Origin: Deltaproteobacteria bacterium
GTDB taxonomy: Bacteria > Desulfobacterota > Dissulfuribacteria > Dissulfuribacterales > QOAL01
DNA length: 41,033 nt
Direction of reading: 5' to 3'
Assembly (NCBI GenBank): GCA_015489365.1
Contig: WFZW01000085.1
Location: 1-41,033, forward strand
Part shown: in pieces, positions 11,840 to 15,793 of the stretch
Position numbering within the stretch: position 1 is the first letter of the stretch
Layout of the letters: every line of letters begins with the position of its first letter
Translations under genes and position numbers: made by a program
The notes under the pieces: model-generated
What the model was told of the DNA's origin: nothing
The model's input: only the letters and a program-made list of their open reading frames with translations
Databases searched by the model: none

Positions 11840-12895
11840 TTGAAAAACAAAAATCCCTACGGACATAATACAGGCGTCGCCATCTTTGCGCTCATATGCC
11901 TTCTTGTCATCATGGCATCATGGGGATGTGCGCTACATAGACAGGAAAGGGCCCAGGGCATCCAGGAACAAACCGTATCAAAGGGAGAAAAGGGCCAGGA
12001 AAAATCCTCTAAAGAGGCCCGCCAGGAAAAACTGGAAGAAAGAATAATAAGCTCTCCCATGCTGATAACAGAGGATTACTTCCGACAAACAGCGGGTTCC
12101 AACAAGCCGATCTCCCTTTTCGGTAATTCAAAGAAAGAAAAACAGCTCGAAGCACGCCTTGCACGACTTGAGGAACGGCTAAAGGGGCTGCCCCAGCGGA
12201 CTACTGACAAACAAGGCATGCCGGTACTGCGTCGAAAGGTGGTCCTTTTATCCCTACTTGGTGACCTTGGATTGGACGTGCTTTCTCTTCTTCCTGCGGC
12301 ACTTAGAAGGACCAATGGCGTCGTGCCTGTAGATGCTAGCCAGCTTTCTAGGCTTTTGAAGGAACGGGGAGAAACGGTGAGTGACCTTGCATCCGCATCG
12401 GTGCGGAGGGAAATAGCCGCCGCCGCCGGGATACATGCCTACATTCTGGTATATTTTCCCCAGGGCAAACCCCCGACAAAGGGTTCTGGTTCTCCATTGC
12501 GCATAGACGTAATCCATGCAACCGAAAGTGTCCTGATAGGTTCCTATCTTGCCACTGTAAATCAGTTTGACACGGTAGCCAAGAAGATATCAGAGGATGT
12601 CATACGGGGGACCGCATGGTCGTGCCGCATAGTAAAGGTCGCCCCCGATGGCATCTATTTAAATGCAGGCAGGCTCACTGGGCTCCGGCCAGGAGATAGG
12701 CTCAAGGTATTCGGCCTAGGACAGGAGATAATCGATCCGCTTACCGGACATTCACTAGGTTTTGCACCAGGCCCCTTTAAGGGAGAAATCAAGGTAAATG
12801 CACTCTTCGGTACGGATGCCTCAAAGGCTGTCATTATCTCCGGCCAGGGGTTTAAGCCTGGTGACATAGTAAAGATATCAGAGCTTGCCCCATAG
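11840..12895 (+). CDS. Lipoprotein with FlgT/CsgG-like C-terminal part
   Basis: A 351-residue predicted lipoprotein of unknown role, starting with TTG. The N-terminus has a hydrophobic signal (VAIFALICLLVIMA) and a lipobox ending in Cys35 (SWGC), then a charged stretch likely to form coiled coil (residues 40-130, including QLEARLARLEERL). The C-terminal 80 residues (IVKVAPDGIYLNAG, GLRPGDRLKVF, GFKPGDIVK) resemble the C-terminal domain of FlgT and related envelope lipoproteins. The middle part (ASQLSRLL, AAAAGIHAYILVYF) is reminiscent of the CsgG/FlgT-middle fold. A promoter or terminator is not obvious in the 149-bp gap after serA. Envelope assembly is inferred only from fold resemblance. 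Confidence 0.7.
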   Translation: MKNKNPYGHNTGVAIFALICLLVIMASWGCALHRQERAQGIQEQTVSKGEKGQEKSSKEARQEKLEERIISSPMLITEDYFRQTAGSNKPISLFGNSKKEKQLEARLARLEERLKGLPQRTTDKQGMPVLRRKVVLLSLLGDLGLDVLSLLPAALRRTNGVVPVDASQLSRLLKERGETVSDLASASVRREIAAAAGIHAYILVYFPQGKPPTKGSGSPLRIDVIHATESVLIGSYLATVNQFDTVAKKISEDVIRGTAWSCRIVKVAPDGIYLNAGRLTGLRPGDRLKVFGLGQEIIDPLTGHSLGFAPGPFKGEIKVNALFGTDASKAVIISGQGFKPGDIVKISELAP

Positions 12896-13224: not shown

Positions 13225-14916
13225 ATGCATCCACTCCTAACAGATGATCCGGGCAAAAATATGTTGTTGCTCGGTAACGAGGCTATTGTAAGAGGGGCAC
13301 TTGAGGCCGGCCTTGCGGTTGCGGCCGCCTATCCCGGAACCCCGTCGTCTGAAATAGGCAATAATCTATTCCAGCTAACTAAGGAGCCAGAGGCACATCT
13401 ATATTTCGAATTTTCCACCAATGAAAAAGTAGCCATGGAAGTAGCAGCAGCCGCCTCTGCCGCTGGGCTCAGAAGTCTCACGTGTATGAAACACGTGGGC
13501 ATGAACGTTGCCTCAGACGTACTGATAACCCTGGCCTATATAGGTACGAAGGGCGGCATGGTGATAATCACTGCAGACGATCCTTCTATGCATTCAAGCC
13601 AAAATGAACAGGATAATCGCTACTATGCCAAGTTGGCTAACCTGCCCATGCTTGAGCCTTCTGGTCCACAGGAGGCCAGGGATATGACCAAGGCCGCCTT
13701 TGAATTATCCGAGGAGCTTGAGCTTCCTGTAATAATTCGAACCACTACCAGGACATCCCATGTCAGGGGACCGGTTGAGCTGGGTCCATTGCCTGCAAGG
13801 AAGCAGGTCGTTGGAAATTTTGAACGGGCTCCAGGGAGATGGGTGCCTGTGCCAGGAGTTGCACGGGTACGGCACAAGGTCCTACTCGAACAGATGGAAA
13901 AGGCACAAAAGAAGGCTGAATCATCGGTTTTTAACCGTATAGGTGGCTCAGGTAAAACAGGTATAGTGGCCAGTGGTGTGGCTTCCTGCTATGTCCATGA
14001 CACTATCATGGAACTAGGCTGTGAAAACCAGGTAAGCTTCTTGAGGCTCGGTTTCACCTATCCCCAACCACGGGAACTTCTGAGCGAATTCTTGAGATCC
14101 GTGGACAAAATACTAGTTGTCGAGGAATTGGAATCATTTCAAGAAGATGCGCTGAAGGCGTTGGCCAATGAGCTTAAGATCAATGTACCCATTTTGGGAA
14201 AGGCAAGTGGGCATTTCTCAAGGCTTTATGAATTTGATCCTGCCATGGTAAAGAACGCAATCGCCGACATCCTTGGATACAAGGTCCAACGCCCCAAAAC
14301 TCCAGATCTTTCCCGTCTGCCGAAACTGCCCATGAGGCCGCCTTCACTCTGCCCTGGTTGTCCCCACAGAGAGACATACAATGCAGTCAAGAAGGCCCTT
14401 GACCTGCTGGGATATACACCAAAGACTATATACCCTACGGATATAGGCTGTTACACCCTGGGGCTCTTGCCACCGATCCAGATGGCAGACTACCTTATTT
14501 GCATGGGGTCCAGTGTGGGGACCTCTGCTGGTTTCTCCGTGGCCACAGACCAAAAAATCGTGTCTTTTATAGGGGATTCAACCTTTTTCCACTCTGGGAT
14601 CTCCTCACTGGTCAATGCGGTTCACAACGAGCATAATTTTTGTCTAGTGGTACTGGATAATTCTACTACTGCGATGACCGGTCACCAGCCAAATCCCGGG
14701 ATAAAGCTAAGGCCCCCTGGTTATGAAAAACCCCGTGTACCCATAGAGGATGTAGTAAGGGCATGTGGTGTCAAGGTGGTGAGGAAGGTAAATCCCTACA
14801 AAAAGAAGGCAACCATAGAGATATTCAAGGAGGTATTAACCAACGATAAACTTTCGGTGGTGATTGCAGAGGCCCCTTGTATCCTATATTACAGGCGGGT
14901 AGGAGGGAAAAAATAA
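13225..14916 (+). CDS. iorA: Indolepyruvate ferredoxin oxidoreductase alpha subunit, no ferredoxin domain
   Basis: A 563-residue TPP-dependent catalytic subunit that oxidatively decarboxylates aryl pyruvates from aromatic amino acids to aryl-CoA with ferredoxin as acceptor. The N-terminal pyrimidine-binding domain shows AAYPGTPSSEIG and FEFSTNEKVAMEVA. The central part has LCPGCPHRETY at residues 375-385. The TPP/Mg motif is GDSTFFHSG at 450-458 with LDNSTTAMTG downstream. The usual C-terminal module with two 4Fe-4S clusters is missing: the protein stops after EAPCILYYRRVGGKK, where relatives continue into CxGCxxC motifs. No frameshifted remnant lies downstream because iorB starts immediately (TAATG overlap). 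Either a separate ferredoxin serves it or the enzyme differs from classical IOR. Confidence 0.92.
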   Translation: MHPLLTDDPGKNMLLLGNEAIVRGALEAGLAVAAAYPGTPSSEIGNNLFQLTKEPEAHLYFEFSTNEKVAMEVAAAASAAGLRSLTCMKHVGMNVASDVLITLAYIGTKGGMVIITADDPSMHSSQNEQDNRYYAKLANLPMLEPSGPQEARDMTKAAFELSEELELPVIIRTTTRTSHVRGPVELGPLPARKQVVGNFERAPGRWVPVPGVARVRHKVLLEQMEKAQKKAESSVFNRIGGSGKTGIVASGVASCYVHDTIMELGCENQVSFLRLGFTYPQPRELLSEFLRSVDKILVVEELESFQEDALKALANELKINVPILGKASGHFSRLYEFDPAMVKNAIADILGYKVQRPKTPDLSRLPKLPMRPPSLCPGCPHRETYNAVKKALDLLGYTPKTIYPTDIGCYTLGLLPPIQMADYLICMGSSVGTSAGFSVATDQKIVSFIGDSTFFHSGISSLVNAVHNEHNFCLVVLDNSTTAMTGHQPNPGIKLRPPGYEKPRVPIEDVVRACGVKVVRKVNPYKKKATIEIFKEVLTNDKLSVVIAEAPCILYYRRVGGKK

Positions 14917-15506
14917 TGGCATTTCAACGGATCCTTTTCACCGGTGTAGGGGGACAGGGGACACTTCTGGCATCCAGGCTCCTTGGAGAGGCCGTAATGG
15001 AAGAAGGCTTGCCTGTAAGGGTAAGCGAGGTTCACGGCATGGCCCAGAGGGGAGGAGTAGTAGAATCCACGGTAATATTAGGAGGACTGGAAGGGCCCAT
15101 AATCTCAAATGGAGAGGCCGACATACTAGTTAGCTTTGAGCCCCTTGAGACCCTGCGCGCCCTGCCGAAATGCCATGAAGATTCCTGGATTATCAGTAAC
15201 ATTATCCCCATCCAGACTCTTACAGTAAGACTTGGACAGGCTGAATATCCTGATCCCGACAGATGGATCGATTTTATAAAACAGCACTTCAAGAACACCG
15301 TGGCATTTGATGCTGAATCCCTTGCCAAGGAGGCAGGGATCACACGGGCTGTCAACATCGTTCTCCTTGGTGCGCTGGCTGGCTGTGGAACAGTACCTGC
15401 GTCGCCCGAACGTCTTAAGAGGGCAATAAAAAAAAGAATAAAGCCAGAATTCGTTGAGGCCAATCTCAAGGCCTTTGAGCTTGGATTGGCCCAGGTCTCA
15501 AGATGA
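14916..15506 (+). CDS. iorB: Indolepyruvate ferredoxin oxidoreductase beta subunit
   Basis: A 196-residue gamma/beta-type subunit of 2-oxoacid:ferredoxin oxidoreductases that pairs with IorA. The family start RILFTGVGGQGTLLASRLLGEA is visible, followed by SEVHGMAQRGG and the CoA-domain-like DILVSFEPLETLRA. The ATG at 14916 overlaps the iorA stop (TAATG) and follows GGAGGG, so translational coupling is likely; an in-frame ATG at 14877 lies inside iorA and is not favoured. Length is normal. Confidence 0.94.
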   Translation: MAFQRILFTGVGGQGTLLASRLLGEAVMEEGLPVRVSEVHGMAQRGGVVESTVILGGLEGPIISNGEADILVSFEPLETLRALPKCHEDSWIISNIIPIQTLTVRLGQAEYPDPDRWIDFIKQHFKNTVAFDAESLAKEAGITRAVNIVLLGALAGCGTVPASPERLKRAIKKRIKPEFVEANLKAFELGLAQVSR

Positions 15507-15520
15507 TACAAGGACCGATC

Positions 15521-15793
15521 ATGAACAGGAAGCTTGCCGTCATTCTATTGATATTTTTGTTAATCCTTGGGCTTGGAGGATGTACCGAGAGACAGAGGAA
15601 GAACCTCAAGCACTTCAAGTCTGATATCATAGGCCTTAAAAGGCGGGTGACCCTATACGATTGCCAGGGTAACCCTATAAGGAAGTGGGAAGGGCGTTTC
15701 AAGATCGAGGTACAAGGTTCATTCATATCATTCATAGATGATAACGGAAAGGACATAAAGCTGAGCGGAACGATAGTAGTGGAAGAGCTATAA
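15521..15793 (+). CDS. Small lipoprotein
   Basis: A 90-residue predicted lipoprotein. The signal LAVILLIFLLILGLGGC contains the lipobox LGGC with Cys21, and the mature part is about 70 residues of mixed charge (LKHFKSDIIGLKRRVTLYD, then an alternating beta pattern to SGTIVVEEL). AAGGA at 15510-15514 is six bases before this ATG, so the upstream ATG at 15503, which overlaps iorB, is less likely. Its look recalls short beta-rich lipoproteins of unknown function found in Firmicutes. It is packed between iorB and scpB. Confidence 0.65.
   Translation: MNRKLAVILLIFLLILGLGGCTERQRKNLKHFKSDIIGLKRRVTLYDCQGNPIRKWEGRFKIEVQGSFISFIDDNGKDIKLSGTIVVEEL

Follow-up and report, generated by a model that had tools for sequence, protein, structure and literature searches.

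An indolepyruvate oxidoreductase α subunit that lacks the ferredoxin module and keeps its proximal cluster site across a bacterial order

The window (the whole stretch of 41,033 nucleotides analysed here) encodes an IorA of the aromatic 2-oxoacid oxidoreductase type without the C-terminal ferredoxin module. This short form is real, occurs order-wide among the relatives of the source organism and has kept the site of the proximal [4Fe-4S] cluster. IorA and IorB probably constitute a working two-subunit aromatic 2-oxoacid (indolepyruvate/phenylpyruvate-type):ferredoxin oxidoreductase, from a lineage without the intramolecular module, in which electrons would pass directly to a free ferredoxin.

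The short IorA and its missing module

The two genes and the C-terminal tail of IorA are arranged as follows.

13225–14916, plus strand: iorA, short form, 563 amino acids, with a POR_N domain (residues 24–203) and a TPP-binding domain (residues 406–547) and no C-terminal ferredoxin domain
14881–14913, plus strand: C-terminal tail ILYYRRVGGKK of IorA, corresponding to the long-form linker into the ferredoxin module
14916–15506, plus strand: iorB, 196 amino acids, POR γ-type subunit, PF01558 (2.7e-36)

The stop codon of iorA (TAA, 14914–14916) and the start codon of iorB (ATG, 14916–14918) overlap by one base, in agreement with the shared TAATG noted when the DNA was read from its sequence only. 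IorA scores 722.7 bits against the NCBIfam equivalog model of the IOR α subunit (TIGR03336), which passes the cut-off of 650.9, and it nests among ordinary IorA sequences in our trees. The idea that it could represent a distinct enzyme class, put forward in that sequence-only reading, is therefore abandoned. IorB stays under the curated cut-offs of the NCBIfam IOR β models (186.8 versus 205.8 and 204 versus 238).

The alignment with TIGR03336 pairs residues 13–560 of IorA with positions 3–539 of the 595-position profile, and the unmatched 56 positions (540–595) are the ferredoxin module. A Pfam scan finds PF01855 (POR_N, residues 24–203) and PF02775 (TPP_enzyme_C, residues 406–547) in one chain and no Fer4 domain in IorA. 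In the alignment, the core of the long-form relatives is followed by a basic linker and then by two cysteine motifs. The window protein ends in ...EAPCILYYRRVGGKK, and a GGK-type C-terminal ending is present in 20 of the 28 rows of its clade.

The AlphaFold model of IorA (pLDDT 88.7, pTM 0.89) superimposes on PDB entry 6n2n with Z 33.1 and an r.m.s.d. of 2.9 over 319 aligned residues. Residues 10–356 match the α subunit of StOFOR (5b46_A; 330 aligned, Z 31.4, r.m.s.d. 3.1), and residues 9–563 match the Desulfovibrio africanus PFOR (1b0p; 506 aligned, Z 31.5) with an r.m.s.d. of 17.6, so that this last match holds domain by domain. All rows above Z 29 in the VIA comparison of the model are 2-oxoacid oxidoreductase-type chains; Foldseek alone does not discriminate, as generic ThDP enzymes rank beside the OFORs.

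A profile of the ferredoxin tail was built from 65 IorA tails and run over three frames of the segment that starts 60 bases ahead of the end of the iorA core and extends 400 bases past it. Among 158 loci with iorA, some of which represent one genome twice, five are cut by a contig end and two are fusions, leaving 151. The 52 short loci all score 1.0 bit or less and the 99 long loci all score at least 56.2 bits (partly by construction, the 65 tails having made the profile), with no intermediate among the 151. In the six frames of the window the profile has no match near 14900–15500. The module is thus absent cleanly and has left no frameshift remnant next to iorA, as had been proposed. The only C..C..C...C motifs in the window lie at 1630–1743 on the minus strand. 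The ORF at 1432–2463 codes for a membrane-like protein of 343 amino acids with two four-cysteine Fe–S motifs, NapH-like by eye.

At E ≤ 1e-60, iorA is present in 34 of the 46 genomes of the order, and in all 34 of these the TIGR03336 match ends at profile positions 538–545. This common end, together with the lack of a remnant under the tail profile, rules out a frameshift or a sequencing error at the 3' end, which had been named as a possible refutation. Homologues sharing the short form and showing classical activity had been named as another: those of the order do share the form, and a reported activity was found for none of them. No second full-length iorA was found in the genome that the window comes from (assembly 99% complete, 239 contigs); it is unlikely that one lies on a contig missing from the assembly.

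Descent and gene neighbourhood of the short forms

In a quick tree of 107 rows (LG+G4) the window-type short forms make up one clade of 28 rows (SH-aLRT 99). In a more careful tree of 41 chosen rows, calculated with a mixture model, 16 window-type short forms again form one clade (100/99) and two Fraserbacteria-type short forms are placed on a separate branch (99/95); the latter type has its own branch in both trees. A single clade of all 18 short forms is not rejected (p-AU 0.123), and for this reason the number of losses behind the window clade and the Fraserbacteria pair is left at one or two. Bins assigned to Thermosulfurimonas and Thermodesulfatator are among the named members of the window clade. 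Thermodesulfobacteria-type bacteria lead an anaerobic life. More distant short homologues occur in L184, L186 and L187 and also in L188 and L189. The distant short homologues of IorA at L244:3030–4577 and L245:3235–4743 lack two of the four cluster cysteines, and the stretches covered at both loci contain no iorB match; these proteins are perhaps non-redox ThDP enzymes. The IorA of Bacteroides is also about 530 amino acids long.

In 14 of the 15 short loci of at least 9 kb, iorB follows iorA, in L111 behind a flavoprotein gene. The short iorA in a 12 kb locus of genome G036 (L044, with the same iorA as L020) has no iorB match at E ≤ 1e-8. No ferredoxin gene was seen beside a window-clade short iorA where the flanks allow a view, many of them being short. 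ORFs with the strict motif were found in only three of 33 distinct short loci (L038, L045 and L111), a partial view as 13 of the 33 are shorter than 4.7 kb. In L038 and L045 they are found upstream, at 2.8 to 7.7 kb from the iorA stop; in L111 they are the flavoprotein and an upstream ORF of 387 amino acids.

Other genes recur around the short forms. The small lipoprotein-like ORF behind iorB (15503–15793) has relatives in at least 23 of the 33 short loci and the lipoprotein-like ORF of 351 amino acids before iorA (11840–12895) in at least 19, and an scpB-like ORF follows in at least 20. Elsewhere in the window, the ORF at 145–1041 consists, by eye, of joined pieces of IS21-type IstA and IstB.

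Two other arrangements in which a flavoprotein accompanies iorA were found.

L111:6001–10052 and L239:1992–6046: operon of short iorA, flavoprotein and iorB in Fraserbacteria-type genomes
L243:2890–5874: fusion of IorA, ferredoxin motif and pyridine-nucleotide flavoprotein, 994 amino acids, followed by iorB

The flavoprotein gene stands between short iorA and iorB in both loci of this lineage, from Candidatus Fraserbacteria (L111) and genome G351 (L239). The L111 protein has Pfam matches to Pyr_redox_2, Fer4_20 and Fer4, and the IorA tail profile gives 48.4 and 52.0 bits for the C-termini of the L111 and L239 proteins. Tails of this kind may have a different explanation in GltD-like proteins, and we therefore do not claim common descent of the flavoprotein and IorA tails. 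The operon possibly encodes an NAD(P)-linked indolepyruvate oxidoreductase.

The proximal cluster site and the exit of the electrons

The residues that are relevant to electron transfer are given below; the four cysteines align with the β subunit of StOFOR (5b48_B), and conservation is counted over the window-clade rows and over the long or fused rows.

14350–14352, plus strand: Cys376, putative first ligand of the proximal [4Fe-4S] cluster, in CPGC; 28/28 and 67/67
14359–14361, plus strand: Cys379, putative second ligand; 28/28 and 67/67
14371–14373, plus strand: Glu383, at the fourth position past Cys379; an acidic residue in two short lineages and in none of the long forms compared
14449–14451, plus strand: Cys409, putative third ligand, in DIGC; 28/28 and 67/67
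14878–14880, plus strand: Cys552, putative fourth ligand, in EAPC, 11 residues before the C-terminus; 27/28 and 67/67

In phmmer, residues 375–555 of IorA pair with the Sulfolobus OFOR β subunit (5b48_B, E 6e-4) such that the cysteines of the CPGC, IGC and PC motifs coincide. In L027, the equivalent of Cys552 is displaced by one residue. By analogy with this homologue, the four cysteines are likely to bind the proximal [4Fe-4S] cluster. The sequence-only reading had stated that electrons from the TPP intermediate need another cluster protein. An outside carrier is indeed needed, but the first electron step requires no other protein because the cluster site beside TPP is kept, with its four cysteine ligands conserved.

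In the reaction that we envisage, TPP bound to IorA would decarboxylate an aryl-2-oxoacid, and the electrons would move singly to the one [4Fe-4S] cluster of the same chain (Cys376, Cys379, Cys409 and Cys552). A free dicluster ferredoxin would then dock at the site of the absent module and take the electrons directly, as in the two-subunit OFORs of Sulfolobus, and CoA would release the arylacetyl-CoA. A PaaK-type ligase encoded elsewhere in the genome could interconvert arylacetyl-CoA and arylacetate, and the IorAB reaction may run in either direction. Direct transfer to a free ferredoxin is favoured because, in the available part of the published account, the StOFORs have no intramolecular domain and StOFOR1 reduces a free ferredoxin (PMC5020499).

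At least three small free ferredoxins are encoded in the genome of the window, on contigs C201 (61 amino acids, L133), C189 (85 amino acids, L190) and C100 (63 amino acids, L191). With no second iorA found, the separate small ferredoxin is the better supported of the two options that had been offered. No other single-domain protein among those compared matches the missing tail as well as the C201 ferredoxin (TIGR03336 positions 528–595, E 5e-8; 40.0 bits with the tail profile). The first motif of the C201 protein is CxxDxxC, and it matches PDB entries 1xer and 2vkr, the latter titled a zinc-containing ferredoxin. A match to it is present in 42 of the 46 genomes of the order, 31 of the 34 with iorA (no match at E ≤ 1e-12 in G034, G037 and G042) and 11 of the 12 without, and the protein is thus available to IorAB and not dedicated to it. 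Of the small ferredoxins seen, the C201 protein would be the most probable acceptor.

A PaaK-like gene scoring at least 390 bits co-occurs with iorA: it is found in 31 of the 34 iorA-bearing genomes (all except G021, G031 and G037) and in one of the 12 others (G013, 55% complete). This association ignores kinship, as ten of the 11 genomes lacking both genes belong to one family, and five of these ten have weaker PaaK-like matches (119–142 bits). The PaaK-like matches lie under the TIGR02155 cut-off in all 46 genomes. Among the 39 long-form loci of at least 9 kb, paaK starts no more than 220 bases past the iorB match in eight and lies upstream in one more; it adjoins iorAB in none of the 15 short loci of this size. 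The PaaK-like gene of the window's own genome (L237:2447–4217) adjoins, by eye, an ACT-domain-like ORF and a pyrG-like ORF; the former is a possible amino-acid-sensing partner.

Clade-specific columns were taken as those in which at least 90% of the window clade share one residue and at most 10% of 56 sister long rows have it. There are nine, among them Glu383 and Cys87. All 28 window-clade rows have Glu at position 383, whose residue in all 68 long and outgroup rows is Ala, Ser, Gly or Pro; it is Asp in L184, L186 and L187, Ala in the Fraserbacteria-type L111 and L177, and Leu and Pro in L188 and L189, respectively. An acidic residue thus marks two short lineages without an adjoining ferredoxin partner and not the flavoprotein lineage, with the proviso that the position was picked out after the fact and that two lineages are only two events. 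A role of residue 383 in acceptor docking is a guess. It is conceivable, if unlikely, that the ferredoxin module is an exchangeable plug: residue 383 would be acidic where the module is gone without a partner gene and the face is remade for a free acceptor, and Ala where a flavoprotein brings the tail in trans, such that one IorA core is wired to ferredoxin or NAD(P) by its partner and the window clade represents a ferredoxin-less OFOR in anaerobes.

The electron carrier might also be a stable subunit. A dedicated two-cluster polypeptide encoded elsewhere, for example the 97-amino-acid POR δ-like protein of contig C76 or a polyferredoxin, could bind IorAB and restore the three-cluster wire, only the gene arrangement then being different. 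The C76 protein matches the missing tail (TIGR03336 positions 541–595, E 1.3e-4; 36.2 bits with the tail profile) and split D subunits are known in other OFORs, as the available part of the report on HpdD describes (PMC13285125). However, the C76 gene lies by eye within a pyruvate-type oxidoreductase cluster, its product has a weaker match to the tail than the C201 ferredoxin, and the window-clade loci seen, many of which have short flanks, show no gene for a two-cluster subunit linked to iorAB. We consider this quite improbable. Less probable again is an NAD(P)-linked enzyme whose electrons go to a GltD-like flavoprotein with an IorA-like ferredoxin tail, as the Fraserbacteria-type operon and the fusion in L243 would suggest. 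The genome of the window does contain an 834-amino-acid relative of this flavoprotein with a Fer4 match (on contig C237), but such relatives are present in all 46 genomes of the order, with or without iorA. Of the 52 short loci (32 of them shorter than 4.7 kb), moreover, only L111, L172 and L177 have the flavoprotein beside iorA; these belong to the other lineage, which has Ala at position 383 where the window clade has Glu.

That electron transfer has been lost altogether, leaving a non-oxidative decarboxylase or a decaying gene, is highly improbable. ThDP decarboxylases share the fold, and the distant short homologues in L188 and L189 lack the equivalents of Cys379 and Cys552, but the window clade keeps the ligand positions in every row (27 of 28 for Cys552), the gene has the same form in all 34 genomes of the order that retain it, and iorB follows it almost throughout the longer short loci. 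A two-subunit oxidoreductase that hands its electrons directly to a free ferredoxin therefore remains our preferred reading.

Comparison with known 2-oxoacid oxidoreductases

The Pyrococcus enzyme is the type case of the classical IorAB. The window enzyme resembles it in having POR_N and TPP domains in this order in one chain, a separate iorB, the proximal-cluster cysteines and a score above the IOR α cut-off, and differs in lacking the C-terminal two-cluster ferredoxin module (profile positions 540–595). The IOR α model includes the ferredoxin tail, and a clade whose electrons leave by another route is therefore likely to be annotated as ordinary. A keyword search of the literature found no match on a short IorA, which may still have been published.

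A closer parallel in terms of electron transfer is found in Sulfolobus tokodaii. According to the available part of Yan et al. (PMC5020499), StOFOR1 and StOFOR2 have no intramolecular ferredoxin domain, and their sole proximal cluster lies next to a large pocket; for StOFOR1, a free 7Fe ferredoxin serves as acceptor, with a Km of 2–3 µM. The enzymes of Halobacterium and Aeropyrum and the KorAB of Hydrogenobacter are also named there as two-subunit OFORs without a ferredoxin domain. The window IorA shares the absence of this domain and the four aligned cysteines, and its acceptor would likewise be free. The domains are distributed differently: the StOFOR α subunit comprises domains III–I–II and the β subunit domain VI, whereas the window IorA joins I/II-like and VI-like parts and IorB is III-like. 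The same part of that paper states that, as of 2016, OFORs without a ferredoxin domain had been seen only in aerobes, while the window clade is found among Thermodesulfobacteria-type bacteria; if the exchangeable-plug conjecture is true, the clade contradicts this remark. The design with a single cluster, known from enzymes that act on pyruvate and 2-oxoglutarate, would also be extended to an aromatic enzyme.

In HpdDEFG of Clostridium scatologenes, a 4-hydroxyphenylpyruvate:ferredoxin oxidoreductase, a polypeptide of its own, HpdD, makes up the ferredoxin domain, as given in the available part of its description (PMC13285125). The window enzyme would share with it an aryl-2-oxoacid substrate. 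HpdDEFG has four subunits with HpdD encoded in the gene cluster, whereas the window operon contains no D gene. The short iorA genes of Candidatus Fraserbacteria (L111) and G351 (L177 and L239) resemble that of the window in having no ferredoxin tail and in keeping the cysteine ligands; unlike the window clade, they lie on a separate branch and have a flavoprotein with a ferredoxin tail before iorB. Taken with this operon and the fusion in L243, the ferredoxin module appears as a movable part that may be fused, absent or carried by a flavoprotein, and the short IorA lends itself to a compact test of the contribution made by the two additional clusters.
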